From Bacteroidota bacterium (lineage in GTDB: Bacteria > Bacteroidota > Bacteroidia > Cytophagales > Cyclobacteriaceae): 64,000 nucleotides of DNA. The position numbers and the translations under genes were made by a program. The DNA is taken from contig JACOSO010000042.1 in NCBI GenBank assembly GCA_016178785.1, forward strand, positions 1 through 64,000, read 5' to 3'. This document shows, piece after piece, positions 12,657 through 64,000 of the stretch (the first letter of the stretch is position 1; each line of letters opens with the position of its first letter). The notes under the pieces were generated by a model. That model worked only from the letters and a program-made list of their open reading frames with translations, did not search any database and was not told where the DNA came from.

Positions 12657-12697
12657 ATCTTAATTCAAAATTTAAGATTCAAAAATTTAAAATTTTA

Positions 12698-16988: not shown

Positions 16989-17020
16989 CCTCACCCTAGC
17001 CCTCTCCAAAGGAGAGGGAA
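16989..17020 (+). repeat. Dispersed palindromic CCTCACCCTAGCCCTCTCC element
   Basis: It starts at the base after the nrdA stop. A head CCTCACCCTAG precedes a hairpin CCCTCTCC/GGAGAGGG with a 3-nt loop. A second copy in reverse orientation lies at 22830-22861, again directly after a stop codon, and a related element is at 37042-37075. Confidence 0.7.
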
Positions 17021-18022: not shown

Positions 18023-18030
18023 TAAAGATA
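18023..18030 (-). promoter_or_regulatory. -7 box of the gene at 17070-18002
   Basis: TATCTTTA on the minus strand, one mismatch from TAnnTTTG, 21 nt before the ATG at 18002. The -33 region falls inside the GTTCAA heptamer array (18041-18061), so the repeat may affect this promoter. Confidence 0.45.
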
Positions 18031-18040
18031 ACATTGCAAA

Positions 18041-18093
18041 GTTCAAAGTTCAAGGTTCAAACCTCAGTAATCGATCCGTTTGAACCTTGAACT
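18041..18093. repeat. Heptamer array with 16-bp inverted arms
   Basis: Three 7-nt units in tandem (GTTCAAA, GTTCAAG, GTTCAAA at 18041-18061). AGTTCAAGGTTCAAAC at 18047-18062 is perfectly inverted as GTTTGAACCTTGAACT at 18078-18093, with a 15-nt loop. It lies between the divergent starts of the unknown gene (18002) and tdk (18120). Confidence 0.85.
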
Positions 18094-18119
18094 CATACTA
18101 AGGCTTCTTATCTTGCGGC

Positions 18120-20197: not shown

Positions 20198-21076
20198 TTA
20201 TGCCGACTTCAATGCCTCTGCACCTGCAACGATCTCAAGAATCTCTTTTGTGATAGCGGCCTGACGAGTGCGATTATAAGTCAATCGCAAGTCTTTCAGG
20301 AGCTCGCCCGCATTTTCGGTCGCTTTATCCATCGCTGTCATCCGTGCTCCGTTTTCTGAAGCATTGCTGTCTAGTACTGACTTAAATAACTGTACTTTCA
20401 GCGATTTAGGAACAAGTCCGGTGATAATTTCTTCCTGATTGGGTTGATAGATGTAATCCACTTCTTCGGCATTCTTTACTTTCGCTGGCGGAAGTATTGG
20501 CAGAAATTGCTCTGTGCGTAAAATTTGAGTGGCTACATTTTTGAATTCGTTGTAAACAACTTCGATCTTATCATACTCGCCTTTACGAAATCCATCCATC
20601 AAAAATTGAGCAACTTCAGAAACTTTATCGAAAGACAGGTCGTGAAAGATCAGGGAATAATCATTCACCATTGGAAAATTTCTCTTTGCAAAAAATTCTG
20701 ATGCTTTTTTCCCGATCGGTAAAATCGTAACGTTTTTCTGTTTGTGTTGTGAAGAATATTTTTCTTCGATCAGTTTTACAACGGCTTTGAAAATGGAACT
20801 ATTAAATCCCCCGCACAATCCGCGATCTGAGCTGACGGTAACTATCAATACTTTTTTTTCTTCGCGAATAGCGTTGTACCAAGTCGGTCCATCGGTGCCG
20901 GCCGCAGACAAGTTTTGCAGAAGTCCGTTCAGTTTCTTCGCAAATGGACGCATTTGAATAATCCGTTCCTGCGATTTGCGCAACTTTGCAGCCGCCACCA
21001 TTTTCATGGCCTTGGTGATCTGTTGCGTTGAGACAACCGATAAGATTCGACTTTTTACTTCTTTTAAACTTGCCAT
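20198..21076 (-). CDS. atpG: ATP synthase gamma subunit
   Basis: 292 residues. The N-terminus MASLKEVKSRILSVVSTQQITKAMKMVAAAKL is the conserved first helix of the central stalk. DRGLCGGFN (about 81-89) and the C-terminal helix with RMTAMDKATENA and YNRTRQAAITKEILEI are family hallmarks. Gamma rotates inside the alpha3beta3 head and couples proton flow to ATP synthesis. It is the last gene of the cluster. atpD and atpC are absent and must lie elsewhere, as is common in Bacteroidetes. Confidence 0.98.
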   Translation of the reverse strand: MASLKEVKSRILSVVSTQQITKAMKMVAAAKLRKSQERIIQMRPFAKKLNGLLQNLSAAGTDGPTWYNAIREEKKVLIVTVSSDRGLCGGFNSSIFKAVVKLIEEKYSSQHKQKNVTILPIGKKASEFFAKRNFPMVNDYSLIFHDLSFDKVSEVAQFLMDGFRKGEYDKIEVVYNEFKNVATQILRTEQFLPILPPAKVKNAEEVDYIYQPNQEEIITGLVPKSLKVQLFKSVLDSNASENGARMTAMDKATENAGELLKDLRLTYNRTRQAAITKEILEIVAGAEALKSA

Positions 21077-21082
21077 ACCTTA

Positions 21083-21189
21083 ATTTGAAAATTTGGTGAT
21101 TTGAAAATGAGGAAATTTAAACTGGTATTCTCCTTTTGTTCAATTATTTGAGCTAGTTTTCAAATTATCAAATTAGCTCATCTTCAAAT
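21083..21189. repeat. Exact 8-nt periodic spacer arrays (atpG-atpA spacer)
   Basis: Five contiguous 8-nt units run from 21083 to 21122: ATTTGAAA, ATTTGGTG, ATTTGAAA, ATGAGGAA, ATTTAAAC. Four or more inverted 8-nt units run from 21158 to 21189: TTTCAAAT, TATCAAAT, TAGCTCAT, CTTCAAAT, then drift. The two arms fill nearly the whole 115-bp spacer between atpA and atpG. Confidence 0.75.
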
Positions 21190-21191
21190 TA

Positions 21192-22766
21192 TTAATATTT
21201 AGATGCTAATTCTGTTGCTGCTTTCTTCACCACATCTGCATCTGCATCTTCAAATTTGCCAGCACGGAAATTGGCAAGCACTTGCTTGTTTTGGGCTCTA
21301 AGCAAATCGATAAATTCTTTCTCGAACTCTTTCATCTTATTTACCGGCACACGGTCCGTGTATCCGCGGGAAGAAGCAAGAATCATTGCCACTTGCTCTT
21401 CAACGGGAACCGGAGCGTACTGAGGCTGTTTCAAAACTTCCGTATTTCTACGGCCACGTTCGATTGTCAATTTAGTAGCAGCATCTAGGTCAGAACCAAA
21501 TTTAGAGAACGCCTCCAATTCGCGGAATTGGGCTTGATCCAACTTCAAAGTACCAGCTACTTTCTTCATTGATTTGATCTGTGCCGAACCACCTACGCGC
21601 GATACTGAAATACCTACGTTGATGGCAGGACGAATACCTGAGTTGAACAAGTTAGTTTCAAGGAATATCTGGCCATCGGTAATCGAGATCACATTCGTAG
21701 GAATGTAAGCCGATACGTCATTGGCTTGCGTTTCGATTATCGGAAGTGCCGTGAGCGAACCGCCACCCTTCACCAAATGCCTGATGCTAGGCGGAAGATC
21801 GTTCATCTTCTTGGCGATCTCATCGTTGTTGATCACTTTCGCAGCGCGCTCCAGCAAACGTGAGTGCAAATAGAACACATCACCAGGATAAGCTTCGCGG
21901 CCAGGAGGTCTTCTCAACAATAATGAAACTTCGCGGTAAGCAACTGCTTGCTTCGATAAATCGTCATAAATGACCAATGCGGGTCTTCCTGTATCGCGGA
22001 AAAACTCTCCAATCGTTGCACCAGTGAAAGGCGCAAAGAACTGCATCGGAGCAGGGTCTCCCGCAGAGGCCGAAACGATCACCGTGAAAGCCATCGCACC
22101 TGCTTTCTCCAACGTAGAAGCCACGCTAGCCACTGTTGATGCTTTCTGACCAATAGCTACATAAATACAGAATACCGGCTTACCCGCTTCGTAAAATTCT
22201 TTTTGATTGATGATCGTGTCTATCGCCACAGCAGTTTTCCCGGTCTGACGATCACCGATGATCAACTCACGCTGGCCACGGCCGATGGGGATCATCGCAT
22301 CAATAGCTTTGATACCTGTTTGTAGAGGTTCATTCACCGGCTGGCGGAAAATTACACCAGGAGCTTTGCGCTCAAGAGGCATTTCATACAGTTGACCAGA
22401 GATTGGTCCTTTACCATCGATAGGTTCTGCCAATGTGTTTACTACTCGGCCAAGCAAGCCTTCTCCGACTTGTACAGACCCAATCTGGCGAGTACGCTTT
22501 ACGGTATCTCCTTCTTTGATTTCTTTTGATTCCCCCAAAAGCACGGCCCCTACATTGTCTTCTTCCAAATTAAGAACGAGCGCTTTCACACCATTTTCAA
22601 ATTGGATCAACTCACCGGCTTGCGCTTGCGTGAGTCCGTAAATGCGGGCAACACCGTCACCAACGGTAAGCACAGTACCTACTTCTTCGAGTTCGGCATC
22701 AGTGCGCGACTTTGAAAGTTGTTCGCGGAGGATTGCTGATATTTCTTCGGGTCTGATTTCTGCCAT
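21192..22766 (-). CDS. atpA: ATP synthase alpha subunit
   Basis: 524 residues. The P-loop GDRQTGKT is at 171-178, the beta-barrel N-terminal domain with [11 protein letters not shown] at about 35-45, and the conserved [15 protein letters not shown] near 380. The C-terminal helical domain follows. It forms the non-catalytic nucleotide sites of the F1 head. The length is standard. It is fifth in the order atpB-E-F-H-A-G, separated from atpH by a palindromic repeat and from atpG by an 8-nt repeat spacer. Confidence 0.99.
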
Positions 22767-22829
22767 GGTATCGTTAATGGTTAATCGTTATTAGTTATTC
22801 GTTCAATATTTTAAATAGCTCTGCCTTTC

Positions 22830-22861
22830 TTCCCTCTCCCCTGGAGAGGGTTAGGGTGAGG
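22830..22861 (-). repeat. Dispersed palindromic CCTCACCCTAACCCTCTCC element
   Basis: Read on the minus strand, it starts at the base after the atpH stop codon: the head CCTCACCCTAA, then the hairpin CCCTCTCC/GGAGAGGG. It is the same element as at 16989-17020 after nrdA, with a slightly different loop. It lies inside the ATP synthase operon, 63 bp before atpA. Confidence 0.75.
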
Positions 22862-24283: not shown

Positions 24284-24319
24284 ACCTGGATTTTTATGAT
24301 TTACTTGATTAACATGATT
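24284..24319. repeat. 9-nt periodic repeat in the atpB-atpE spacer
   Basis: Four contiguous 9-nt units each ending in GATT: ACCTGGATT, TTTATGATT, TACTTGATT, AACATGATT. No gene or promoter overlaps them. The rest of the 182-bp spacer is AT-rich and holds nothing else I can name. Confidence 0.6.
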
Positions 24320-46770: not shown

Positions 46771-46812
46771 AAGACTAAGACTAAGAACTGAATCTAGAAA
46801 CAAGGATCAAGA
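46771..46812. repeat. Heptamer-like spacer starting at the purD stop
   Basis: Read leftward from 46812: ATCAAGA, AACAAGG, ATCTAGA, then GAACTGA, AGACTAA, AAGACTA, all in 7-nt register. The first unit overlaps the purD TGA. No coding or terminator function is visible. Confidence 0.5.
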
Positions 46813-48204: not shown

Positions 48205-51200
48205 TTATTCAATCACGAATTTGAAATATATGTTTTGAACTTTCAAAATATATAGTCCTGTTGACAGATTAGCGAGGCCAACGGATGTCTTCAGCGTTCC
48301 GTCAGAGTCGGTAATACTCTCTCGTGAGTTAATTTTGATGCCTTGCATATTTAAAATTTGAATTTCAGTCTCACTGTTTGCCTCGAGTCCATTAATCACA
48401 ATGTTTAATGGTTGATGTTGTGAAATTGGATTGGGATAAACTGATACTAATGGTTCCAGGTTTATTACATTAACAACGATGACTTCTGAATTGGTCGAGT
48501 GCCCGTCAAAATCCGTCTGCTTTAATTGATAATAATTCTTTCCGAGGAGCGGTTTAGAATCTGTAAGCAGATAGGTATGAGAAGAATTTGTTGTTCCATT
48601 CCCTTTTACCGAACCGATAGATTCGAAGGTGCCGCCCATTGCCGAGCGTGAAATTGTAAAGTAATCATTGTTTTTTTCGGAGGCTGTTTTCCATTGCAAA
48701 TCAACTCCATATTTTTTTGCCTCGCCTGTGAAACTTAAAAGTTCAATTGGCAGAGGGGAAGTCACAGAGTTTGTAGATCCGACATAAAACTTATCCCCAT
48801 CTGTGGTAGTGATGTCTGTTAACGTAAGCCCGATCCTCTTCAAACGAGGGTCAGAAGTAGTGTTGGTCGCTGCAGAATAAGTACCAACAACAGAAGTAGC
48901 TTTGCAAAGGTTAAGGTCTGCCAAATTACCAACTGTGCCGAACCCGGTTCCGCCAGCAATCAAGTCATAGGTTCCTCCAGATACACCGGATGATGATATC
49001 GACCAATATCCCTGGTGTTGAAGAACAATGGGTGTAACAGGACTGGTGGCATCTGGAATAGAGACTGATGTAGTGATATTGTTGGAATTGTTGCTCACGG
49101 TAAATGAACCACCCGTTGTCATATCACCAGAAGGAACACCAATAAAGAAGGGTCTAAAGTCGGCTGAGGTGCCCATCGGAAAGAATCCGGTTACCGAACC
49201 ATCAGCTATTGTTGTTGTATTGAAATAGCGAACCAAATTCCCTCCATACATCCAGCCTTCAGTAGAAGCAAGTGAGTGACTAAGAGTTCCAGGTGATGCC
49301 GCGGCTGTACCGATGGTTAAATTTTGCGAGTTTAAGTTGATGTTTCCTTTAGTCATTGTGAGCGTTGAGGAAACGATGTCGTTACCACCACTTAAAGTAA
49401 TCTGAGGAGAGGTACCGAAGGTATTATTAATGATCAGGTTATTAAATGTAGTAGCCCCCGTTATACTTTGAGCCGCGGTGCCATTAAAGGTGACCGTTCC
49501 GGTTCCAGCAGTGTAGGTTCCGCTGTTTGACCAATTTCCAGCGATGCTAATGTTTGCATTGTTAGAGCTATTGTCCAATGTATTGCCAGCCCCGATAGTA
49601 AGATTACCATTTACTGTGAGGTTGGTTGCGGTTGTAGCCACCGTTGATGAAATCAGAAGATTATTGTAAGTACTTCTATTATTCATGCTAATCGCGGCCG
49701 CATATTCAATCGTTCCGCCAGCTGAGGCTGTGAAGGTAGTATAGGTTCCAGCGGGTAAGGTACTAGTGGTCGTCCTCATTGTTCCGGTACTCGATATCGA
49801 ACCAATATTATGTCCGGTCGTAGTAACCACAAGCAATCCCGAGAGTTGTGTCGTGAATGCACTTTGGCCAAGTATATCCAAATTGATGCGTGCCGCGGGA
49901 AGGATCACCACAGGCCTGTTGGTTGGAACAGAACTTAAGGCTGCGCCAAACCCATTGGATGCAAGCGTCCAACTGGTAGCTATTGCCCAGCTTCCGCCAA
50001 TGCCCAAAGTTCCTACCGTAGTTGGATTACTAACCATATCCGCATCTGCAAAACGGCTGTAAACGGGAGCAATAGGGTTGGGTAGAGTCGTTGTCGTTCC
50101 ATAAGTATAATCGAATTCACCGTTCACAGCGGGCATCACTGTATTCAAAGCGTTGGTGAATGTAAGAAGTGTATTAGTCGCTACGGTAGAAATTACGCCA
50201 CCACTGGTCCAGCCAATTAAGTTGATGGCATCCAGGTACGCGCCAATTAATGTTCCTCCAGATCCTCCAATCAATCCCGTTGGAACTTGAAACACGAGGG
50301 TACCGGTTGCACCATGAACAAGCGTATTATCCTTAGTTATTTTCCAATAGTAATCAAGAATCTGCTCGCCCGTGGCGCTGGACGTGGGATGTGCAGCATC
50401 AACAGGAATGACATTATAAGTACCCGCAGTTGTTACGACTAGACTTGTGAGGGTAACCGGGGTATAGTTGGTTCTTGTGCCCACAGAATAAGTAAATGAA
50501 TTAGTACCTACCGGCCAATTTTTGGTAACCCCTAAATCACTGGAAACTCCATTCGTCTTTATATATTTTGTACTTCCGGCATTCGAAATTGTGGCTGTGT
50601 TTGAAAATGTCAAAAGATTGGACCCGATAAAAAGATAACGATTTACTGCCGCTGTTGCAGTAAAGTCAAGAGTTCCATTCATCGTCATATTTCCGCTCAC
50701 CGTCACCAGGTTGTTGGTTGCTGCAGCCCCTCCGATAATGAGGTTGGTAAAAGAACCACTTGAGCTGGTAATGGTATGAGATGTCGAAGTTGTAGTAGTA
50801 AACGTAATTGATCCACCGCCAGAAGCTGTCTGGCTGCTATTGTTGGTAATATTTCCGTTCACATTAAGAGCGAGCGACCCAACATCCAAAATTCCGCTAA
50901 GAATATTTAGGTTGCTTAAAGTTGGGGCGGTCCCGGATAAAGTAACTGTACCTCCGCCAGAGTTATTGACTGTTATATTGGTGAAAGTACTTGTGCTCGT
51001 CAAGTTTGCACTTTGAGCGCCCGTTCCATTAAATGTAGTGGTGTTAGTACCTCCCGTGTAAGTGGCTGTTCCTGTTCCGGTAACTGTCAAATCTCCTGCG
51101 ATACTTACATCGAAGGAATTTGTCACTAAAACGGATGGAGTAATAATCGTGAGCGTGCCCCCCAAAACCAGTGGATTGGAATATAGATTTACAGTTTGTG

Positions 51201-54200
51201 GATTGGCAGCCGCTCCAGGTCCCAATACCTTAAAGTTCCCAATAGAGGGGGCGATGTTTACCCTTAGATTCGCTTGGGTAGTAGCAGTAGTCAAGCCAAC
51301 TGAAATAGTACTTGTTGATGATACGCTACTTGTAACAGGGTTAATATAAACATCTGCATAGCTCGTTCCATTGGTTTGTCTTTGAACCGTAAGGGCTCCG
51401 GTTCCCGTTAGCGTAAAGCTGCTTCCAGTATTTACATCAATTTCAAAAACACCTCGGGTATTGCTGGAAGAATTCCCTCCAACTGTAGTAGTTCCTCCAG
51501 TTTGATTGTACACCAGAGCTCCTGAAAGTGCAGATGTTGATCTTCGAATGGAGCCGATTACATTAAGGGCTGCAGTTCCGGAAACAGTAATCGTAGGTGT
51601 TCCTGCAGACGCGTATTCAAGGTCATTATCTAACGTATTTCCTACGGCTCCAACATTAACAGTACCTGTTCCCGAAGCAGTGAGAGAACCATTTAATAAA
51701 AGGTCAGCGGCAGTAGTGTTGGAACTTAAAATAGTAACTGTTCCTGCATTTACTGAAAGTTTAGTTGTGGAAGGAATCGTGTATGAACCATTGAATGAGC
51801 TGATGGTGTAAGTGCCTGAGTTATTGAAAATGAAAGATCCATTGGTAAGTCTCAACCATCCGAGGGCAACGTTGTTATTCGCTGCGGTTACTGTTCCCCC
51901 GACACTGAATGTAACAGTTGGAGTTTGTGATGTTCCCTTGTTGACTGTGATGAAATCCAAGGTTGTGCCACCGGATCCCGTTCCGTCAAAATTCACATTG
52001 CTTGAACCTGTGAATGTAATATCTACAGTGCCGGTATTATTAAAATTGATGGTCCCGTTATTAGTAATACCGCCAGCTGTGCTCAACGTATTTGCGTTCG
52101 CGGTTCCACCGGCAACCACCCCGAAGGTTGCGCCATTTCCAACGGTAGTGTTCCCTGTCACGGTCATGGTTGTAGCGGAAGCCGCAGCATTGGAGAAACT
52201 GAATGTCCCCAATGTTATTGTTAAAGAACCAGAAATTGCAATTGTTCTCGCGCCATTGGTAATGGAAGTTCCTGTGAATCCGGCCACGTTGCCCTGGGTA
52301 AGGTTATTATATATTGTTAGGTTTGAAGCGGGGAGTGTAATTGTGTTAGCGGCATTTGGATTAAGAACCAAATTGTAATAGGTCGCAAGACTGAGATTTT
52401 GAGGAGCTGGACCTGTAGCCGGAATGGTCTTGGTGGCTCCGTACCATTCCACGGTTCCACCGCTTGATCCGATAAAGTTTGTGAAATCCCCTGCCGGAAA
52501 CATATTGGCTACGCCCGCACCGACTGCTGCTATACGCAATGTTCCAGTCCCAGTTACCGACCCACCTGTACTCGTTCCAAAATTATGGCCAGTAAAAGTG
52601 CTGCAATCCAAAGTCGATCCTGAACTCAAAGTTAGTGAACCACATGAGCTTGCAGCCACGGTCGTAATGGTATGATTATTCGAGGCACCATCACCAATAA
52701 TCACCGGGCAAGTGGCACAAGAAGTGGGGTTACTGGATGCCGCTGCACCACCAATAGCAACAGTACTCCAGGTTGCGTTTACATTCCAATTACCACTTTG
52801 ACGGCTGTAATAGGTAGTCACCGTACCGAAGGCAGCAATGTTACCGCAAGTATATTCACCATCCAATTGGTCGCTCGCAACGCCCGTCCACCCGGTGCCT
52901 GTATTAAAATTCGGGATTACCGTAGTTCCGGTGGCATCATAGGTTGTATTGTTAGTTGCCCAAGTGTTAGCAGAACGATCATATCTTGCAGAGCGATATG
53001 AGGTCAGTGTCCCAGCTTTAGTAGCAGTGCTGAAAGTGTAGGTTTTGTGCGTGACAGCGGTGATCCCGGAAAAACCGGAGGTAGTTACTCGCCAATAGTA
53101 AACAAGACTTTGGGTTATTGTGGTTACGTTCGGATGTTCACTGTTGACCGGGCGAACGGTAATGGTTCCCTGCGTAGTTGCCGTTGCATTGATCGTAATC
53201 GGAGAATAGCCCACCGCAGCATTTGCACCCACGGCCGATGATCCCACAGGAAATAGGAGGTCGCCAGAAATCCCTTGCCGGGTCAACCCTCCAGCGTTAT
53301 GAAATCCACTTAAGAGAATTCTTTTGGTAGCCGTAAAAGCAACTCCTGTGGCGGCATCACTGTAAATATTTCCCAAGGCAGTAAGTGCATTTGAAGCAAT
53401 ATTTAAGGTTGAGCTTGCTCCAATTAACCTTAGCGTTCCTGAAACTGTTTGAGTACCCGATGTAGCAACAGTATTGTTTGTTTGGATAGTCAGGTTTCCA
53501 AATGTGCCGTTTGTACCACCAATCGTTGTGGGGCCGTTAACGGTGATGTTGCCCGTTCCTGTAGAAGTGTGAGTCGCATTATTGGTCAACGCTGTTGTTA
53601 CAGTTACTGTATTTCCACCGTCAGCCATTGTACCAGAAGTAAGCGTAAGCGTTGCTATGTTTGGCAGTGTGCCTCCGGCCAATGTAAGAGTCCCCGCACT
53701 TTTATTTACAACTACGGTATTCAAACTGGTTATTGTTCCCGTTTTAGTCCAAGTTTGAGCACCGGATCCATTAAAAGTGACTGTGTTTGCCCCTGGGGTA
53801 AAAGTTGTTGACGCTTGAATATTGAAATTGCCACCCACTGTTAAGTCATTAGCATTGCAATTCAGTGTGGTACTACTTACCGTTACTAATGTGAGGTTAT
53901 TCAACACTGTCAGAGGTTGGGCCGTCTCGGTTATAGTCGACACCCCATCAAAAGCAGAAATACTATTTAAAATGGCTACAGCTGCACCGGCTCCATCCTG
54001 ATTTATATTTAGGTTATAAAATGAAGCCGTAGAAGTAATTGTGAAATTGACACCGGAGGCTGGAATGAAGGCGTTCACAGTTCCACCTGTAACTGAAGTG
54101 TTGCTCGTGGCAGTATTTATCATAATACCGCCCAGATTGCCAATGCCACCGTTCATTGGATTCCCCACGTTTAAAATACCTCCTGACATTTGGAATGTGC

Positions 54201-57200
54201 AAGTGGTGTACATCAGGCAAAACCGCGGAAAATCTGTAATATCAACGCCACTCAAGCCTGCAGTGCCTACGTTAATTGTTCCTCCAGATTGGACATAAGC
54301 AAAGTTATTTCCCGTACCTAAATTAGTAGTGCGTAGCTGCCAAGTGTTAATTGTACCCCCCTCCATAAGAAGATAACCTGATCCTCCACCCAAAAGCCCT
54401 CGAGAATATCCTAGATTCATCGTGCCGTTTGTTACACGGAGAAGACCGAAAACGTGAAAATGCTTGTTGTCGCCAACGGTATTATCGGCCGCCTGAACAG
54501 TGACGGTAGAACTGTTGATCCACAGTGCACCATTTTGAGGGATAGGCCAGCTGCTAGTTCCTCCATTATCAACAATCATATTTGGAATATTGATTGAACC
54601 CGTTAACTGCAGCGTTCCATTTACTATTGACAAATCATTGTTCGAAATATAGTTGGGTGCTGCACCGGAGCGTGCTATGTTGTTCGGGCCGAAAAGTCTA
54701 AAGTTGGCAGTGTTCAAAGAATTTACTGTAAGCATGGCTTGCTGCCCAGTTCCTTTGTCTAAGATTAGCCTGTAAAAATCTGTCTGATTGTTGCACGTAA
54801 GGGTTTTGCTTGTTGTTCCACTAAAAGTAACCTTTACTGCATTCCCTCTTAATGCCGATGTGTAAACCGCACCAGAAGTGTAATTGGCAGCAGAGTAGGT
54901 AGCGTCAGTGGGGTCAAAGAATTGAATGATCCCATTATTTGTCAGGTTTCCGGAGAGGGTTAAACTGTGTTGCGTTGCAGAGCCCGAGTTACCCGTGCCT
55001 GCAGTAATTTTTCCATTGCTTGAAACGGTCAGATCTCCAGCGATGGTAATGGTTCGGTTAGCATTTGTGGCGTCATTTATTTGCCACGTTACTGTCCCTG
55101 TGCTTGAAGCCGTAATATTAAAATTATTATTGATGGTCAGGTTATTGGTTTCAGTAAATGTGATAGCCGATGCTGTGCTGTTTGTCAACTTTAAATTGTT
55201 GTAGGTTGTTTGAGCGGTGGGCAGCGTTCCTGTTACATCATAATATTCAATAGTTCCTCCTGTTGATGCAGTAACAAAAGCGGTGTAAGTACCTGTAGGC
55301 AGAGCAATCCCTTTTATTCTTAAGAGTCCCGTACCACTTAGTGTACCCAGTGTATTACCCGTGGTGGTAGACATATCAAGCGTAGCTCCATTGTTGATCG
55401 TTGTAGTAGTTGCTACTTGCCCGTTAACGTCATTAGTGATAGTTATCCCGTTCAGAATTACAATCGCATCACCAGGCTGAGGAGGCAGGTTTAATCCGTT
55501 GACAAGAGTGGTACCCGATGGATCGCTTGTCCAGTTTTGCCAATTGCTCCATACACCGGTTTGGTAACTGTACCAGGTGTTGGGATAAGCATCCGCAGAC
55601 CCATTGGTATAATAGTAGGTTCCGGTACTTAGTGAGGCAGTTGCAGAACTTCCACCGGCAACCGTAAAGATGTTGTTGGGTGGGTGGGTTATGGTTGCAA
55701 TATTGGTCCAGGCCGCACTAGCAGAAGAAGCCGCCAAATACCATTCAACCGTATAGTTTGACTCAGCATCGCCTGCCGAAATATCGGTTGCATTGTTGTA
55801 GTTAAAAGCACCGTTCGAAAAAGTAGTAGCATTAGCATTCCCCGCAACAATAAGTCTGAATACTCTACGCAATTGTCCTTGGCTGCTAAGGTTATAGATA
55901 GCTTTTATTGATAGCGTACTATTGGCTACAGGTGCAGTAGTAACGGTTGGTAAAGTCACTGGAGTATAGCCTCCAGAACTAGTACCGATTGGATAGGTAA
56001 TTGCCCAAGGACCAGTGGCTGCTGTGGTTGTTTTTATTAAATTACTATTCGTTCCCGTCAAACCATCCAATTGAATATAGCGGTCAGAAGCAGCCCCGGC
56101 AATAGTACCTGCGCTACCAAGAGTAATGTTTGAAGAAGAATTCACCACCATTATCCTGGCCGTGGAAAAAGTTAACGTTCCGCTTACGCTGATGCTTCTA
56201 TTGACATTAACATTTGTTGTTGCCGTATTTAATGTTACGCTTGCAAATGAAATCGTTCCGGCACCACTGATCGTTTGAGCTGAGGCCGTTCCATTATTAA
56301 AAGTGACAAGCCCCGAAGGGCTAAATGATCCTGAACTCACCGTTAGGTCACCGGCTATGTTTGCTGTGGTTACAGTAGGGGCCGTTGTTCCTGAATATGT
56401 GAGGTGATAGTAACTAACTGCCGGAATAGTTGGAGTGGCGCCCGTGAAATTTACCGTATTACCTGACCCCGTAGGTGTAAAAGTGGTAATTGTAATAGTC
56501 GAGCCAGCATAAGAAAGGGTACTATTGGCTCCTTGAACAAAGGAACCTGTTCCAGCCAAAACACCCGCTCCGGTATTAGACAAGGTAACAGTGTTTGTAT
56601 TGTTGTTTGTTACGGCAATCCCCGTTGCAGTTACCGTATTAGCGAACGACATCGCGGCAGTCCCTCCTATACTTTGAGCATTCGTATTGAAAGTGGCGGT
56701 ACCTGCTGCGAACGTAGTACCCGTAGAAGAAACACCATTTCTGAAAACAAGGTTATTAGTTGTAGTAACTGCTGTTGATGTCCAGGATCCTGAATTGGAG
56801 ACTGCACCAATAAAGGTTTTTACTCCTGTATCGCTGGTAAGTGAAAAAGTACCAGCAACTGTGGTGGTTCCGGTTACAGTAAGCGTAAGGCTGGATATTC
56901 TCGTGTCTGTAGCTGTTGCCGGAACGCTAAAATTAGTGGAAACATTAAGAACACGGGTAGCCGCTGTACCGGTAATCTGGCTTGTATTGTCCATGGTAAG
57001 ATTACCGCTAACAGTAACTGTAAATGCTCCATTGATATTTAGAATTCCAGAATTGCTGGTTGTTAAATCTCCTGACACGGTTGTTGTAGCACCGATATTG
57101 CCAGTAACCGACCCGGAATATGTCAGGTGATAATAATTTACTGCCCGAATAGTAGTTGGGTTAACCGATCCGGTGTAATTAACTGTATTCCCAGCGTTGG

Positions 57201-58137
57201 TGGCATTGAAAGTTGTAACAGTTAGTGTTTGGCCGGCATAAACGAGAGTGCTGTTATTGCCTTGGGTAAAGGTACCAGTTCCTGATAAGGAGGCCGCTCC
57301 TGTATTTGAAATTGTGACTGCACTCGAATTATTATTTGTAACGACTACACCCGTCACAATTACAGAGTTGGCAAATGACATGGCAGCGGTTCCTCCGATA
57401 CTTTGGGCATTCGTGTTAAAAGTTGCTGACCCCGCTGCAAATGTTGATCCGGTGGACGATACACCATTTTGAAAAATCACGGTGTTTGATGGTGTAATTG
57501 CAGTCGAAGTCCAAGATCCGGAATTTGACACTGCGCCAGCAAAAGTTTTTGATCCGGTATTATTGTTAAGTGTAAACGTACCCGCTACAGTGGTCGCTCC
57601 GGTTACGGTCAGGGTCAAGGCACCCATTCTCGCATTGGTAGCAGATACCGGGACGCTTAAGGAAGCTGTACTAATGATACTCGTAGCATTTGCCCCATTA
57701 ACCTGGCTTGTGCCGTCTATCGTCAATGTTCCTGTGATTGTGAGTGTAAAGCCAGCATTAACAGTTAGAATGGAACTCCCAGCCGTGGTAAGGTTGCCAA
57801 TTGAGAAAGCTGGCGTTACATTGACATTCATTGTTTGCCCTGTAAGAATGGTCACTGTTCCAGGGGTAGCTACTTGGCCAGGATAATTAATGGCAGCACC
57901 CCAGGTGGCACCATTAAATAGTTGCCAGTTTGCAACAACATTCCAATTGGTACCGGCTCCGCTTGTCCGATAATCCCCGGCTATTTGGCCTGAAGCAAAG
58001 TTTGCGATTGAAAGAAAAGAAATGACTAAAACAAAGACCTTACTTATTGATAAAGTAGATTTTGTTCGATTGCACCCCAATAACGCTTGTAACATTGCAA
58101 ATGAACCCAATTTCATTAAAGCCATAACAAATTTCAT
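48205..58137 (-). CDS. Giant T9SS-exported beta-solenoid-like surface protein
   Basis: 3310 residues. The export signal is at about 31-50 (KVFVLVISFL...FASGQ) after an unusual 30-residue lead that has its own hydrophobic run ending in a lipobox-like ALLGC at Cys22. The body is Thr/Asn/Ser/Gly-rich short strands (for example NLTVNGNLTIGAGNTLDNSS), as in beta-helix adhesins. Two long repeats (about 120-345 and 363-582) have a period of 243 residues. Modules with W...W, GTGTLR and PAGTYT.F..S.GGTIEYYG recur further on. A fibronectin-like region and a T9SS sorting domain (VYPNPISQHQPLN...) close it. Probably a surface adhesin or filament. Confidence 0.92.
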   Translation of the reverse strand: MKFVMALMKLGSFAMLQALLGCNRTKSTLSISKVFVLVISFLSIANFASGQIAGDYRTSGAGTNWNVVANWQLFNGATWGAAINYPGQVATPGTVTILTGQTMNVNVTPAFSIGNLTTAGSSILTVNAGFTLTITGTLTIDGTSQVNGANATSIISTASLSVPVSATNARMGALTLTVTGATTVAGTFTLNNNTGSKTFAGAVSNSGSWTSTAITPSNTVIFQNGVSSTGSTFAAGSATFNTNAQSIGGTAAMSFANSVIVTGVVVTNNNSSAVTISNTGAASLSGTGTFTQGNNSTLVYAGQTLTVTTFNATNAGNTVNYTGSVNPTTIRAVNYYHLTYSGSVTGNIGATTTVSGDLTTSNSGILNINGAFTVTVSGNLTMDNTSQITGTAATRVLNVSTNFSVPATATDTRISSLTLTVTGTTTVAGTFSLTSDTGVKTFIGAVSNSGSWTSTAVTTTNNLVFRNGVSSTGTTFAAGTATFNTNAQSIGGTAAMSFANTVTATGIAVTNNNTNTVTLSNTGAGVLAGTGSFVQGANSTLSYAGSTITITTFTPTGSGNTVNFTGATPTIPAVSYYHLTYSGTTAPTVTTANIAGDLTVSSGSFSPSGLVTFNNGTASAQTISGAGTISFASVTLNTATTNVNVNRSISVSGTLTFSTARIMVVNSSSNITLGSAGTIAGAASDRYIQLDGLTGTNSNLIKTTTAATGPWAITYPIGTSSGGYTPVTLPTVTTAPVANSTLSIKAIYNLSSQGQLRRVFRLIVAGNANATTFSNGAFNYNNATDISAGDAESNYTVEWYLAASSASAAWTNIATITHPPNNIFTVAGGSSATASLSTGTYYYTNGSADAYPNTWYSYQTGVWSNWQNWTSDPSGTTLVNGLNLPPQPGDAIVILNGITITNDVNGQVATTTTINNGATLDMSTTTGNTLGTLSGTGLLRIKGIALPTGTYTAFVTASTGGTIEYYDVTGTLPTAQTTYNNLKLTNSTASAITFTETNNLTINNNFNITASSTGTVTWQINDATNANRTITIAGDLTVSSNGKITAGTGNSGSATQHSLTLSGNLTNNGIIQFFDPTDATYSAANYTSGAVYTSALRGNAVKVTFSGTTSKTLTCNNQTDFYRLILDKGTGQQAMLTVNSLNTANFRLFGPNNIARSGAAPNYISNNDLSIVNGTLQLTGSINIPNMIVDNGGTSSWPIPQNGALWINSSTVTVQAADNTVGDNKHFHVFGLLRVTNGTMNLGYSRGLLGGGSGYLLMEGGTINTWQLRTTNLGTGNNFAYVQSGGTINVGTAGLSGVDITDFPRFCLMYTTCTFQMSGGILNVGNPMNGGIGNLGGIMINTATSNTSVTGGTVNAFIPASGVNFTITSTASFYNLNINQDGAGAAVAILNSISAFDGVSTITETAQPLTVLNNLTLVTVSSTTLNCNANDLTVGGNFNIQASTTFTPGANTVTFNGSGAQTWTKTGTITSLNTVVVNKSAGTLTLAGGTLPNIATLTLTSGTMADGGNTVTVTTALTNNATHTSTGTGNITVNGPTTIGGTNGTFGNLTIQTNNTVATSGTQTVSGTLRLIGASSTLNIASNALTALGNIYSDAATGVAFTATKRILLSGFHNAGGLTRQGISGDLLFPVGSSAVGANAAVGYSPITINATATTQGTITVRPVNSEHPNVTTITQSLVYYWRVTTSGFSGITAVTHKTYTFSTATKAGTLTSYRSARYDRSANTWATNNTTYDATGTTVIPNFNTGTGWTGVASDQLDGEYTCGNIAAFGTVTTYYSRQSGNWNVNATWSTVAIGGAAASSNPTSCATCPVIIGDGASNNHTITTVAASSCGSLTLSSGSTLDCSTFTGHNFGTSTGGSVTGTGTLRIAAVGAGVANMFPAGDFTNFIGSSGGTVEWYGATKTIPATGPAPQNLSLATYYNLVLNPNAANTITLPASNLTIYNNLTQGNVAGFTGTSITNGARTIAISGSLTITLGTFSFSNAAASATTMTVTGNTTVGNGATFGVVAGGTANANTLSTAGGITNNGTINFNNTGTVDITFTGSSNVNFDGTGSGGTTLDFITVNKGTSQTPTVTFSVGGTVTAANNNVALGWLRLTNGSFIFNNSGTYTISSFNGSYTIPSTTKLSVNAGTVTILSSNTTAADLLLNGSLTASGTGTVNVGAVGNTLDNDLEYASAGTPTITVSGTAALNVIGSIRRSTSALSGALVYNQTGGTTTVGGNSSSNTRGVFEIDVNTGSSFTLTGTGALTVQRQTNGTSYADVYINPVTSSVSSTSTISVGLTTATTQANLRVNIAPSIGNFKVLGPGAAANPQTVNLYSNPLVLGGTLTIITPSVLVTNSFDVSIAGDLTVTGTGTATYTGGTNTTTFNGTGAQSANLTSTSTFTNITVNNSGGGTVTLSGTAPTLSNLNILSGILDVGSLALNVNGNITNNSSQTASGGGSITFTTTTSTSHTITSSSGSFTNLIIGGAAATNNLVTVSGNMTMNGTLDFTATAAVNRYLFIGSNLLTFSNTATISNAGSTKYIKTNGVSSDLGVTKNWPVGTNSFTYSVGTRTNYTPVTLTSLVVTTAGTYNVIPVDAAHPTSSATGEQILDYYWKITKDNTLVHGATGTLVFQVPTGLIGGSGGTLIGAYLDAINLIGWTSGGVISTVATNTLLTFTNALNTVMPAVNGEFDYTYGTTTTLPNPIAPVYSRFADADMVSNPTTVGTLGIGGSWAIATSWTLASNGFGAALSSVPTNRPVVILPAARINLDILGQSAFTTQLSGLLVVTTTGHNIGSISSTGTMRTTTSTLPAGTYTTFTASAGGTIEYAAAISMNNRSTYNNLLISSTVATTATNLTVNGNLTIGAGNTLDNSSNNANISIAGNWSNSGTYTAGTGTVTFNGTAAQSITGATTFNNLIINNTFGTSPQITLSGGNDIVSSTLTMTKGNINLNSQNLTIGTAAASPGTLSHSLASTEGWMYGGNLVRYFNTTTIADGSVTGFFPMGTSADFRPFFIGVPSGDMTTGGSFTVSNNSNNITTSVSIPDATSPVTPIVLQHQGYWSISSSGVSGGTYDLIAGGTGFGTVGNLADLNLCKATSVVGTYSAATNTTSDPRLKRIGLTLTDITTTDGDKFYVGSTNSVTSPLPIELLSFTGEAKKYGVDLQWKTASEKNNDYFTISRSAMGGTFESIGSVKGNGTTNSSHTYLLTDSKPLLGKNYYQLKQTDFDGHSTNSEVIVVNVINLEPLVSVYPNPISQHQPLNIVINGLEANSETEIQILNMQGIKINSRESITDSDGTLKTSVGLANLSTGLYILKVQNIYFKFVIE
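56392..57780 (-). repeat. Tandem 729-bp coding repeat inside the giant gene
   Basis: Copy 1 about 57103-57780 and copy 2 about 56392-57051. Shared protein blocks include AVSNSGSWTSTA, ATFNTNAQSIGGTAAMSFAN (residues 238-257 and 481-500) and YYHLTYSG. The exact offset between copies is 243 residues. The DNA is clearly diverged, so this is an old duplication. Confidence 0.85.
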
Positions 58138-59911: not shown

Positions 59912-59938
59912 TTATCAATTAGCCAATTCTCGGACAAA

Positions 59939-60020
59939 AGTAGGCAGTAAGCAGTCTCTCGTTGGCAGTTGTTGATCAATTAAATCGCTGCTGCCTACTG
60001 CTTACTGCTTACTGCCTACT
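59939..60020. repeat. Heptamer array with perfect 16-bp inverted arms
   Basis: The left arm AGTAGGCAGTAAGCAG (59939-59954) is exactly inverted as CTGCTTACTGCCTACT (60005-60020). The right side is four tandem 7-nt units: CTGCCTA, CTGCTTA, CTGCTTA, CTGCCTA (59991-60018). It fills the guaB-truA divergent spacer and ends 12 bp before the truA start. Confidence 0.9.
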
Positions 60021-60032
60021 ATTTTTGAAGGA

Positions 60033-61225: not shown

Positions 61226-61232
61226 AAGTAAA

Positions 61233-61264
61233 ATTTGAGGATTTGAAAATTAGATAATTTGAAA
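61233..61264. repeat. Exact 8-nt periodic array (ccmF-haem_bd spacer)
   Basis: Four contiguous 8-nt units: ATTTGAGG, ATTTGAAA, ATTAGATA, ATTTGAAA. It has the same unit type as the array in the atpA-atpG spacer (21083-21122), 40 kb away. Confidence 0.7.
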
Positions 61265-61344
61265 ACGGAAATCAATTGAAATGTTCAATTTGTCGGATTG
61301 CCAAATCTGGATTGGGTGTTTGTATTTTTAAATTGATTCTCAAA

Positions 61345-63852: not shown

Positions 63853-63907
63853 TCTTAGTTCAAAGATTTAAAATTTCAAATTCAAAAAGGAAGGGCAAAT
63901 TTACCCT

Positions 63908-63942
63908 GAATTTTGAATCTTAAGTTTGGAATTTTGAATTTG
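63908..63942. repeat. Exact 7-nt periodic array (ccmE-ccmF spacer)
   Basis: Five contiguous 7-nt units: GAATTTT, GAATCTT, AAGTTTG, GAATTTT, GAATTTG, ending 2 bp before the ccmE stop. A weaker inverted counterpart (TTTAAAATTTCAAATTC) lies at 63868-63885, and a similar stretch fills the rplU-rpmA spacer (12660-12697). Confidence 0.7.
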
Positions 63943-63944
63943 GG

Positions 63945-64000
63945 TTAAACGCCTTCGTCCAACTTTTGTTCCTGATACTTAGAAGGGCACTTAAGAAGAA
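63945..64000 (-). CDS. ccmE: Cytochrome c maturation protein CcmE, C-terminal end (partial)
   Basis: The last 17 codons before a TAA at 63945-63947 read LLKCPSKYQEQKLDEGV. The L.KCPSKY segment is the characteristic C-terminus of Bacteroidetes CcmE, the periplasmic haem chaperone that hands haem to CcmF. It is immediately upstream of ccmF on the same strand, the expected order. The rest is outside the window, so the catalytic His cannot be checked. Confidence 0.8.
   Translation of the reverse strand, partial: LLKCPSKYQEQKLDEGV

Follow-up and report, generated by a model that had tools for sequence, protein, structure and literature searches.

The spacer between atpA and atpG in the window (the whole 64 000-nt stretch of Bacteroidota DNA that was analysed) carries a hairpin whose two inverted arms are built of degenerate 8-nt units, and the same position in related species carries hairpins of other sequence families. 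On balance and with modest confidence, we favour a model in which hairpin slots, of which atpA–atpG is the best shown, are filled by exchangeable repeat hairpins, with selection keeping the hairpin and being largely indifferent to its sequence. The data suggest that at atpA–atpG the shape matters and the letters do not. With one slot in a core operon, 12 families in one genus and one shape, the locus is a natural experiment on shape versus letters in an mRNA hairpin. It also makes testable the origin of heptamer arrays and the replacement of a segment of ∼ 100 nt with little trace in the adjoining genes.

The atpA–atpG spacer of the window

The genes for the ATP synthase gamma subunit (atpG, 20198–21076, minus strand; PF00231, E = 4e-100) and alpha subunit (atpA, 21192–22766, minus strand; Pfam PF00006/PF00306/PF02874) are separated by a hairpin whose inverted arms repeat a degenerate 8-nt unit of AATTTGAA type (21077–21191, minus strand), whose plus strand folds with a z-score of −5.0. 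Read in the sense of transcription, the atpA stop codon lies directly 5′ of this spacer and the atpG start at its 3′ end. The arm adjoining atpG (21081–21113) is of AATTTGAAAATTTGGTGATTTGAAAATGAGGAA type and the arm adjoining atpA (21153–21191) holds the inverse units (neither arm is assigned a strand); both consist of 8-nt AATTTGAA-type units and pair with each other. The spacer matches itself at 15/21 positions at lag 8 (p = 0.005 for lag 8 alone, 0.025 for the best of lags 6–9). A reading of the letters alone (the sequence-only reading) had described exact 8-nt units here. The 8-nt unit and the inverse arms were borne out, but the units are not exact: TRF gave 68–76% matches for the left array and 100% over two right-hand units only. 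No intrinsic terminator (GC-rich stem plus T run) was found within 21077–21191, and Rfam gave 0 matches at the gathering score across the window. A heptamer array of CGTTAAT type, absent from the list of that reading, lies in the atpH–atpA spacer (22770–22805, unstranded; 17/21 at lag 7).

Periodic spacers across the genome

The sequence-only reading had proposed that spacers are built of units of fixed 7, 8 or 9 nt and had named autocorrelation as the check. This was run on 444 spacers of 20–1000 nt from the window and 40 further stretches of its own genome (857 kb together). Gene calls were crude (longest ORFs of at least 80 aa), so that some spacer edges are off. Dinucleotide-preserving shuffles served as the null, and an array was called at ≥ 16/21 self-matches at a lag. 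At lag 7, 40 of the 444 spacers reached this threshold compared with 0.2 in shuffles. At lag 8 seven did so (0.6 in shuffles), a count that, unlike that for lag 7, may be inflated because the stretches came from contigs with AATTTGAAAATKWG octamer matches and 7 of the 40 contain one. Harmonics appeared at lag 14 (24 versus 0.1) and lag 16 (6 versus 0.2), and zero of the 444 spacers reached the threshold at lags 10 and 11. Three spacers did at lag 9 (0.3 shuffled) and three at lag 6 (0.4 shuffled). The peaks at lags 7 and 8 thus stand far above the shuffles; periods of 7 and 8 nt are real and genome-wide, and 9 is marginal.

In a coding control (first 457 kb, ≥ 15/21), lag 7 scored 1.2 per 100 kb of coding chunks versus 66 per 100 kb of spacers. 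No arrays were found among 49 spacers from 100 kb of E. coli. Across 20 genomes of the same order, lag 7 was present very unevenly in 16 of 240 spacers versus 1.4 shuffled; one of the 16 is an N-run of genome G037, which was counted in both observed and shuffled sets and also appears in the unit comparison. The lag-7 z-score is 8.3 in the own genome, 1.8 in G031 (200 kb) and −0.1 in G001 (74 kb). When relatives were compared, arrays proved variable: a spacer that holds an array in one species may have none, or one built of different units, in its neighbour.

An inverted match of at least 16/20 was found in 18 of 32 array spacers versus 18 of 199 other spacers of the first 457 kb, a level reached by 0.6% and 1.9% of the respective shuffles. 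One explanation is purely mutational: arrays would be by-products of slippage and template switching in unselected spacers, and the DNA at atpA–atpG would keep making hairpins. We consider this unlikely, although several properties of the arrays agree with it. Array rates in the own genome are similar in co-directional (35/291), divergent (7/92) and convergent (4/61) spacers, and co-directional arrays outside atpA–atpG show no sense-strand folding bias (the sense strand is better in 16 of 31 in the own genome and in 8 of 19 in the Hymenobacter stretches). Moreover, bacterial genomes are enriched in heptamer repeats, for which a cause in slippage linked to the polymerase footprint has been suggested (PMC4692102, excerpt). 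Template switching can likewise create and mend hairpins; it resembles what is needed here in building and repairing inverted arms through mutation, but it has been described for RNA genes and alone gives neither a 7–8 nt period nor shared units (PMC8794818, excerpt). Slippage or templated copying, with these published precedents, fits the degenerate period and the inverted arms. In 21 Hymenobacter-set loci of 20 kb, other co-directional spacers of 50–170 nt fold at z < −2 in 27 of 54 non-periodic and 19 of 19 periodic cases; since all 19 arrays outside atpA–atpG fold well, good folding belongs to arrays and not to the slot. Most arrays outside atpA–atpG look like dispersed, near-neutral intergenic repeats.

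Units shared within genomes

Among the heptamer units of the own genome, 119 of 741 pairs lie within one mismatch (rotation and strand allowed), whereas 300 shuffles of the unit letters gave a mean of 37.9 and a highest value of 60. The own sample contains five unit clusters with two or more members; the main clusters are ATTCAAG/GGTTCAA, GTTAATC grading into ATAGTCG, the 8-nt AATTTGAA and GCAGTAG. In situ mutation leaves such units, common to many loci of one genome, unexplained. The unit of the H. rigui atpA–atpG spacer, GTTGTCAGTTGTYR (L091), has 46 matches in H. rigui, 46 in Daejeonella, 10 in H. citatus and 0–6 in 12 others; the Daejeonella atpA–atpG unit, ATCTCACATCTCAS, has 27 in Daejeonella and 0–2 in 14 others; and the ATAGTCS unit has 8 in the own genome and 0–2 in 39 genus-mates. 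Among 392 genomes sampled across the phylum, the AATTTGAA octamer pattern was found in 14, all of them in the class of the window.

For AATTAAG, abundance in the genome predicts the local family in the Hymenobacter set (p = 0.0016); this unit reads the same backwards, so that a reversed-pattern control for it is useless. For GTTGTCA in the same set, the proposal that genome abundance drives the local family was unsupported (p = 0.13). We also rejected stored cassettes as a source: 20 other GTTGTCA places (3 in G059, 17 in G552) have the same arms and no full-length close match to the slot allele, the closest being 84.5% identical over 71 nt, and their loops differ when compared by eye. In L279 (G552 C1 2516250–2516600), the loop of a GTTGTCA hairpin holds a terminator-like stem and T run, as if the arms had grown round an older spacer. 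In L271–L287, all from one Hymenobacter-set genome, the loop-proximal units GTTGTCAGTTGTTAG / CTAACAACTGACAAC look more constant by eye than the outer ones. Contigs C10, C12 and C15 of G553 carry long near-perfect AATTAAG arrays of about 10–20 units, besides shorter ones.

It is very unlikely, in our view, that the hairpins are REP- or MITE-like mobile elements moved by a transposase. Such elements would account for the dispersed copies and for presence or absence at orthologous spacers, as at L042 14435–14534 (100 nt in the own genome, 105 in G005, 31–33 in four others) and L053 4828–4906 (79 nt in the own genome, 3 in G031). However, unit length and sequence vary freely, loops vary between copies, and no conserved tag or end was seen by eye at the 20 GTTGTCA places. 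Nor do Y1_Tnp gene counts obviously track arrays: there are 5 in the own genome, 3 in H. rigui, 1 in Daejeonella and 3 in G001, which shows no lag-7 excess in 74 kb. In a small sample of eight Y1_Tnp loci from three array-bearing genomes, none has a ≥ 16/21 array in the spacers within ∼ 1.5 kb. REP/BIME sequences are likewise intergenic hairpins dispersed over the genome, but here no fixed palindrome or tag was seen, the loop is variable and the small sample showed no RAYT association.

The atpA–atpG slot across species

The nearest named records by atpG similarity are Cytophagales and Cyclobacteriaceae MAGs and Chryseotalea sanaruensis. In the GTDB genus of the window, the spacer could be read in 28 other species: some have a plain hairpin or a short gap, and others an array with units of 7 nt or, in various families, of 8 nt. 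In a wider set of named species, a heptamer or octamer array hairpin occupies the position in species of Hymenobacter, Pedobacter, Mucilaginibacter, Daejeonella and Arcicella, a plain non-periodic stem does so in species of Algoriphagus, Pontibacter and Echinicola, and others have a short gap. The counts cover 105 spacers, leaving out L016, L096 and L108 (without atpA), L085 (overlapping genes) and L131 (1210-nt gap). Of these, 77 measure at least 45 nt with the stop codon, and 70 of the 77 fold at z < −2. In the other 28 species the gap of 2–33 nt has no room for such a hairpin, which is therefore not indispensable.

With a TAA stop prefixed to every spacer of the named set whatever its real stop, the sense strand folds better in 56 of 75 spacers (Wilcoxon p = 3e-6, related species being counted as independent). 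The bias is alike in periodic (25/32) and non-periodic (29/39) hairpins, also after shuffle correction; this split omits three spacers > 160 nt and the duplicate L083 and retains L080, which equals L025 apart from the prefix. Since the sense strand folds better, RNA-level selection is likely at atpA–atpG. The suggestion of the sequence-only reading that the arrays act as mRNA hairpins is thus supported for this position across species, but not for arrays in general; RNA spacers, another of its suggestions, could not be told apart from hairpins here. The window's own copy goes the other way, its antisense strand folding better (−30.0 versus −21.8 kcal/mol for the sense strand). A purely mutational origin fits poorly with a slot that is also filled by non-periodic stems and other repeat families, the non-periodic ones having the sense bias as well. 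In a half-swap comparison of 27 spacers from the genus of the window and near relatives, pairing dropped from −19.8 to −13.7 kcal/mol; the own half ranked first in 5 of 27 cases and in 1 of 15 within the TTTGAA group. This result is supportive on average and weak by rank.

Hairpin families in Hymenobacter

Within the genus of Hymenobacter rigui, each of the 101 genomes searched matched the atpA–atpG locus, which was read in 41, namely H. rigui and 40 of the 100 other matched genomes, drawn from the better matches. All 41 spacers fold at z < −2, 38 are 7-nt periodic (≥ 14/21), and the sense strand is better in 28 (p = 6e-5, relatedness ignored). String rules written after the spacers had been seen, with three rows relabelled between family calls, divide them into 12 families: GTTGTCA (9 spacers), GTTGATT (8), AGCTGTT (7), AATTAAG (6), GTTGCCA (3), GTTTTTG (2), three singletons and three non-periodic ones. 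Two of the three non-periodic slot hairpins (L246, L256 and L264) resemble other dispersed repeats. Repeat-like hairpins of another kind (GTCATTGCGAGG..., ...TTCGACTTCGCTCAGCATGAC and CCTGCGCTTGCGAAGGA) fill spacers in L246, L264, L112 and L168, and two of them occupy the atpA–atpG slot in the Hymenobacter set.

The base of the stem lies a median of 7 nt from the first base of the stop codon and 9 nt before the ATG in the 41 spacers. The stem thus runs from ∼ 4 nt past the stop codon to ∼ 9 nt before the next ATG, leaving the stop and start regions free. At least 5 nt are free at the stem edges in 38 of 41 spacers of this set and 62 of 77 of the wider set. Covariation within families is thin, with a double change in 1 of 29 and 2 of 30 pairs and arms that are nearly invariant.

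Each of the atpA, atpG and joint trees requires 25 or more changes of family, and 100 label shuffles on the atpA tree gave a mean of 27.7 (range 25–31). In the window's own genus there are 14 changes over 29 rows (mean of 100 shuffles 18.3, range 14–20). Both counts equal the lowest of their 100 shuffles, which points to some vertical inheritance. Nevertheless, family is near-random on the tree while distant species with the same family have spacers that are homologous throughout their arms, loop and tail (9 and 7 rows aligned; mean column identity 85% and 83%), so that in the two aligned families these are alleles of the slot. Mutation in place leaves such homologous alleles in distant species, loops and tails included, unexplained. 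They favour another alternative, to which we give close to an even chance: homologous recombination within the flanking genes would pass old alternative slot alleles from species to species, as in horizontal regulatory transfer, with no special role for the repeats. It would account for swaps and not for the origin of the arrays, and it is compatible with the model of hairpin slots filled by exchangeable repeats.

Exchange of spacers between close species

In six sister pairs (L248/L252, L230/L231, L236/L240, L243/L249, L233/L234 and L235/L238), atpA identity over its first ∼ 960 nt is 95–97%, and the gene ends beside the spacer (75 nt at the 3′ end of atpA, 75 nt at the 5′ end of atpG) are 93–100% identical, yet the hairpins are unrelated. 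Among pairs at ≥ 0.94 atpA identity, 11 of 18 differ in family with a spacer identity of < 0.65. A second spacer, by position just upstream of atpA, swaps alike (for example 11785–11870 of L230). The sequence-only reading had also put forward recombination sites; these swaps between sister species indicate, at the level of sequence, exchange of some kind.

The flanks of the swapped spacers bear on how this would occur. In the 11 swapped pairs, the mismatch rate is 0.152 in the 15 nt by the stop codon and then 0.048, 0.033 and 0.07; in the first 15 nt of atpG it is 0.006 and not raised. The last 90 nt of atpA differ by 8–12 mismatches in 4 of the 10 swapped pairs listed, ends that may be imported tracts, and species that share a family show a small excess of similarity over the 3′-terminal 75 nt of atpA (residual 0.02; p = 0.002 by label permutation, relatedness ignored). 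Both observations speak for circulation of alleles by recombination in the flanking genes. Against it, the other six listed pairs show 1–6 mismatches there (1–3 in five of these), and across the 11 swapped pairs mismatches are raised only in the 15 nt by the stop codon.

Spacers without arrays are also mostly unswapped, which likewise counts against it. This was seen in 54 orthologous spacers of 13 close pairs, which were hand-picked and share species. The 27 spacers without an array have a median identity of 0.87, with 7% near random. The 23 with an array in either species have a median of 0.55 (random 0.49); 11 of these are the atpA–atpG spacer itself, and the other 12 have a median of 0.65 by hand count. 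Flanking genes are alike in the two classes (93.7% for array and 93.0% for non-array spacers). The 23 array spacers split into 5 at 0.94–0.99, 14 at 0.45–0.56 and 4 between. The earlier idea that register is kept while the unit drifts is therefore half the story, as array spacers of close species are often either near-unchanged (5/23) or unrelated (14/23). In one close pair of the window's genus (G002/G033), a single array among 14 spacers has an identity of 0.88, and the other 13 range from 0.79 to 1.0.

A stronger reading of the swaps is that a dedicated process replaces whole hairpins almost exactly from stop to start, drawing by precise short tracts on a shared pool (at other loci or in other cells), or that selection keeps several alleles across species. 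We regard this as quite improbable; if true, dedicated swapping or cross-species allele maintenance would add a new type to the intergenic variation of bacteria.

A model for the hairpin slot

In the model that we favour, of slots filled by exchangeable repeat hairpins, the hairpin would sit in the polycistronic mRNA between the atpA and atpG cistrons. The filler would be an array hairpin with two inverted arms of 7- or 8-nt units in Hymenobacter, Pedobacter, Mucilaginibacter, Daejeonella, Arcicella and the genus of the window, and a GC-rich stem or another repeat family in other species. ATP synthase contains three alpha subunits and one gamma subunit per enzyme, and intercistronic mRNA stem-loops set unequal expression in operons. 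The likely job of the hairpin would be to separate alpha output from gamma output, either by mRNA protection or processing or by translational uncoupling. Slippage in steps of 7–8 nt together with template switching could make and mend the arms, and exchange of short tracts would carry whole alleles from one lineage to another. Swaps that lack imported flanks could be explained by very short tracts, by prolonged re-homogenisation within the species or by a precise process.

Known intercistronic stem-loops resemble the atpA–atpG hairpin in position and geometry; unlike them, the latter has its whole sequence replaced from one close species to another. Repeat maskers and covariation searches would be misled by such spacers, because hairpins that are equivalent may fail to align.

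Relation to known repeats

Cyanobacterial STRRs are heptameric short tandem repeats. As described in the excerpts of two papers (PMC4679880, PMC4692102), heptameric repeats are, like the present arrays, intergenic, 7 nt in period, patchy over lineages and dispersed over several loci per genome. Known cases include the GGGAATC/GGGGATT heptamers of Xanthomonas and Nostoc (PMC4679880, PMC4692102, excerpts) and, as the closest account found, TAACTGA units repeated directly in Beggiatoaceae, in cyanobacteria and in five Bacteroidetes (PMC4679880, excerpt). Those repeats, however, are near-perfect copies of one or few fixed words, whereas here the units are degenerate, fall into many families, measure 7 or 8 nt and mostly form inverted arms. 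In the portions seen of the open-licence PMC literature on heptamer, STRR, intergenic or hairpin/tandem repeats (Bacteroidetes, cyanobacteria, Flavobacterium, Hymenobacter), we found no account of inverted degenerate arrays, and in such portions nothing was judged relevant to the atpA–atpG intercistronic region.

The swaps resemble switched intergenic regions and horizontal regulatory transfer, which are known in E. coli and S. aureus (Piggy; PMC5890482, excerpt) and in which the same gene pair has unrelated spacers that are incongruent with the gene tree (PMC5890482, excerpt; Oren et al. cited therein). They differ in that the alternatives here are nearly all hairpins, swap between species and lie inside an operon.

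Other arrays of the window

The sequence-only reading listed seven sites in the window. Five of them hold up, and two are weak and form no hairpin, 46771–46812 (7 nt; 14/21 at lag 7, p = 0.03) and 24284–24319 (the only 9-nt site; 16/21 at lag 9, p = 0.008, folding z = +0.5). All sites in this section are without assigned strand. Heptamers of AGTTCAA/GGTTCAA type and their inverse fill the divergent spacer by a thymidine kinase gene (18033–18093; 18/21 at lag 7), with direct units at 18033–18061 and inverse units up to 18093; the plus strand of 18030–18119 folds at z = −4.8. The divergent spacer between the IMP dehydrogenase and tRNA pseudouridine synthase genes holds GCAGTAG/GCAGTAA heptamers and their inverse (59939–60020; 19/21 at lag 7; z = −6.7 for the plus strand of 59939–60032). 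By a CcmF-like gene lies an ATTTCAA array with its inverse (63858–63942; 15/21 at lag 7; z = −2.1 for the plus strand of 63853–63960). The 8-nt array of AATTTGAA type at 61233–61264 (16/21 at lag 8) has a single clear arm, and the plus strand of 61226–61344 folds at only z = −0.9. These four arrays beat their shuffles, with best-of-lags p values of 0.001–0.016 that apply to each site singly, the seven listed sites and extra ones having been tested. A weak heptamer/octamer array lies at 12662–12695; the orthologous spacer of G031 is similar in sequence, and that of G005 has an 8-nt array there.

Motifs resembling TAnnTTTG, which we take to be the Bacteroidota −7 box, were noted by eye in the loop or at the edge of arrays upstream of genes, in the window at 59930–59945 and 63890–63905 and elsewhere in L046 16147–16273 and L049 3140–3689. 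Two further spacers of the window (16989–17020 and 22832–22861) both contain the hairpin CCTCACCCTA.CCCTCTCC...GGAGAGGG, apparently a separate family unrelated to the arrays. The minus strand of the window also holds one ORF of 3310 aa (48205–58137).
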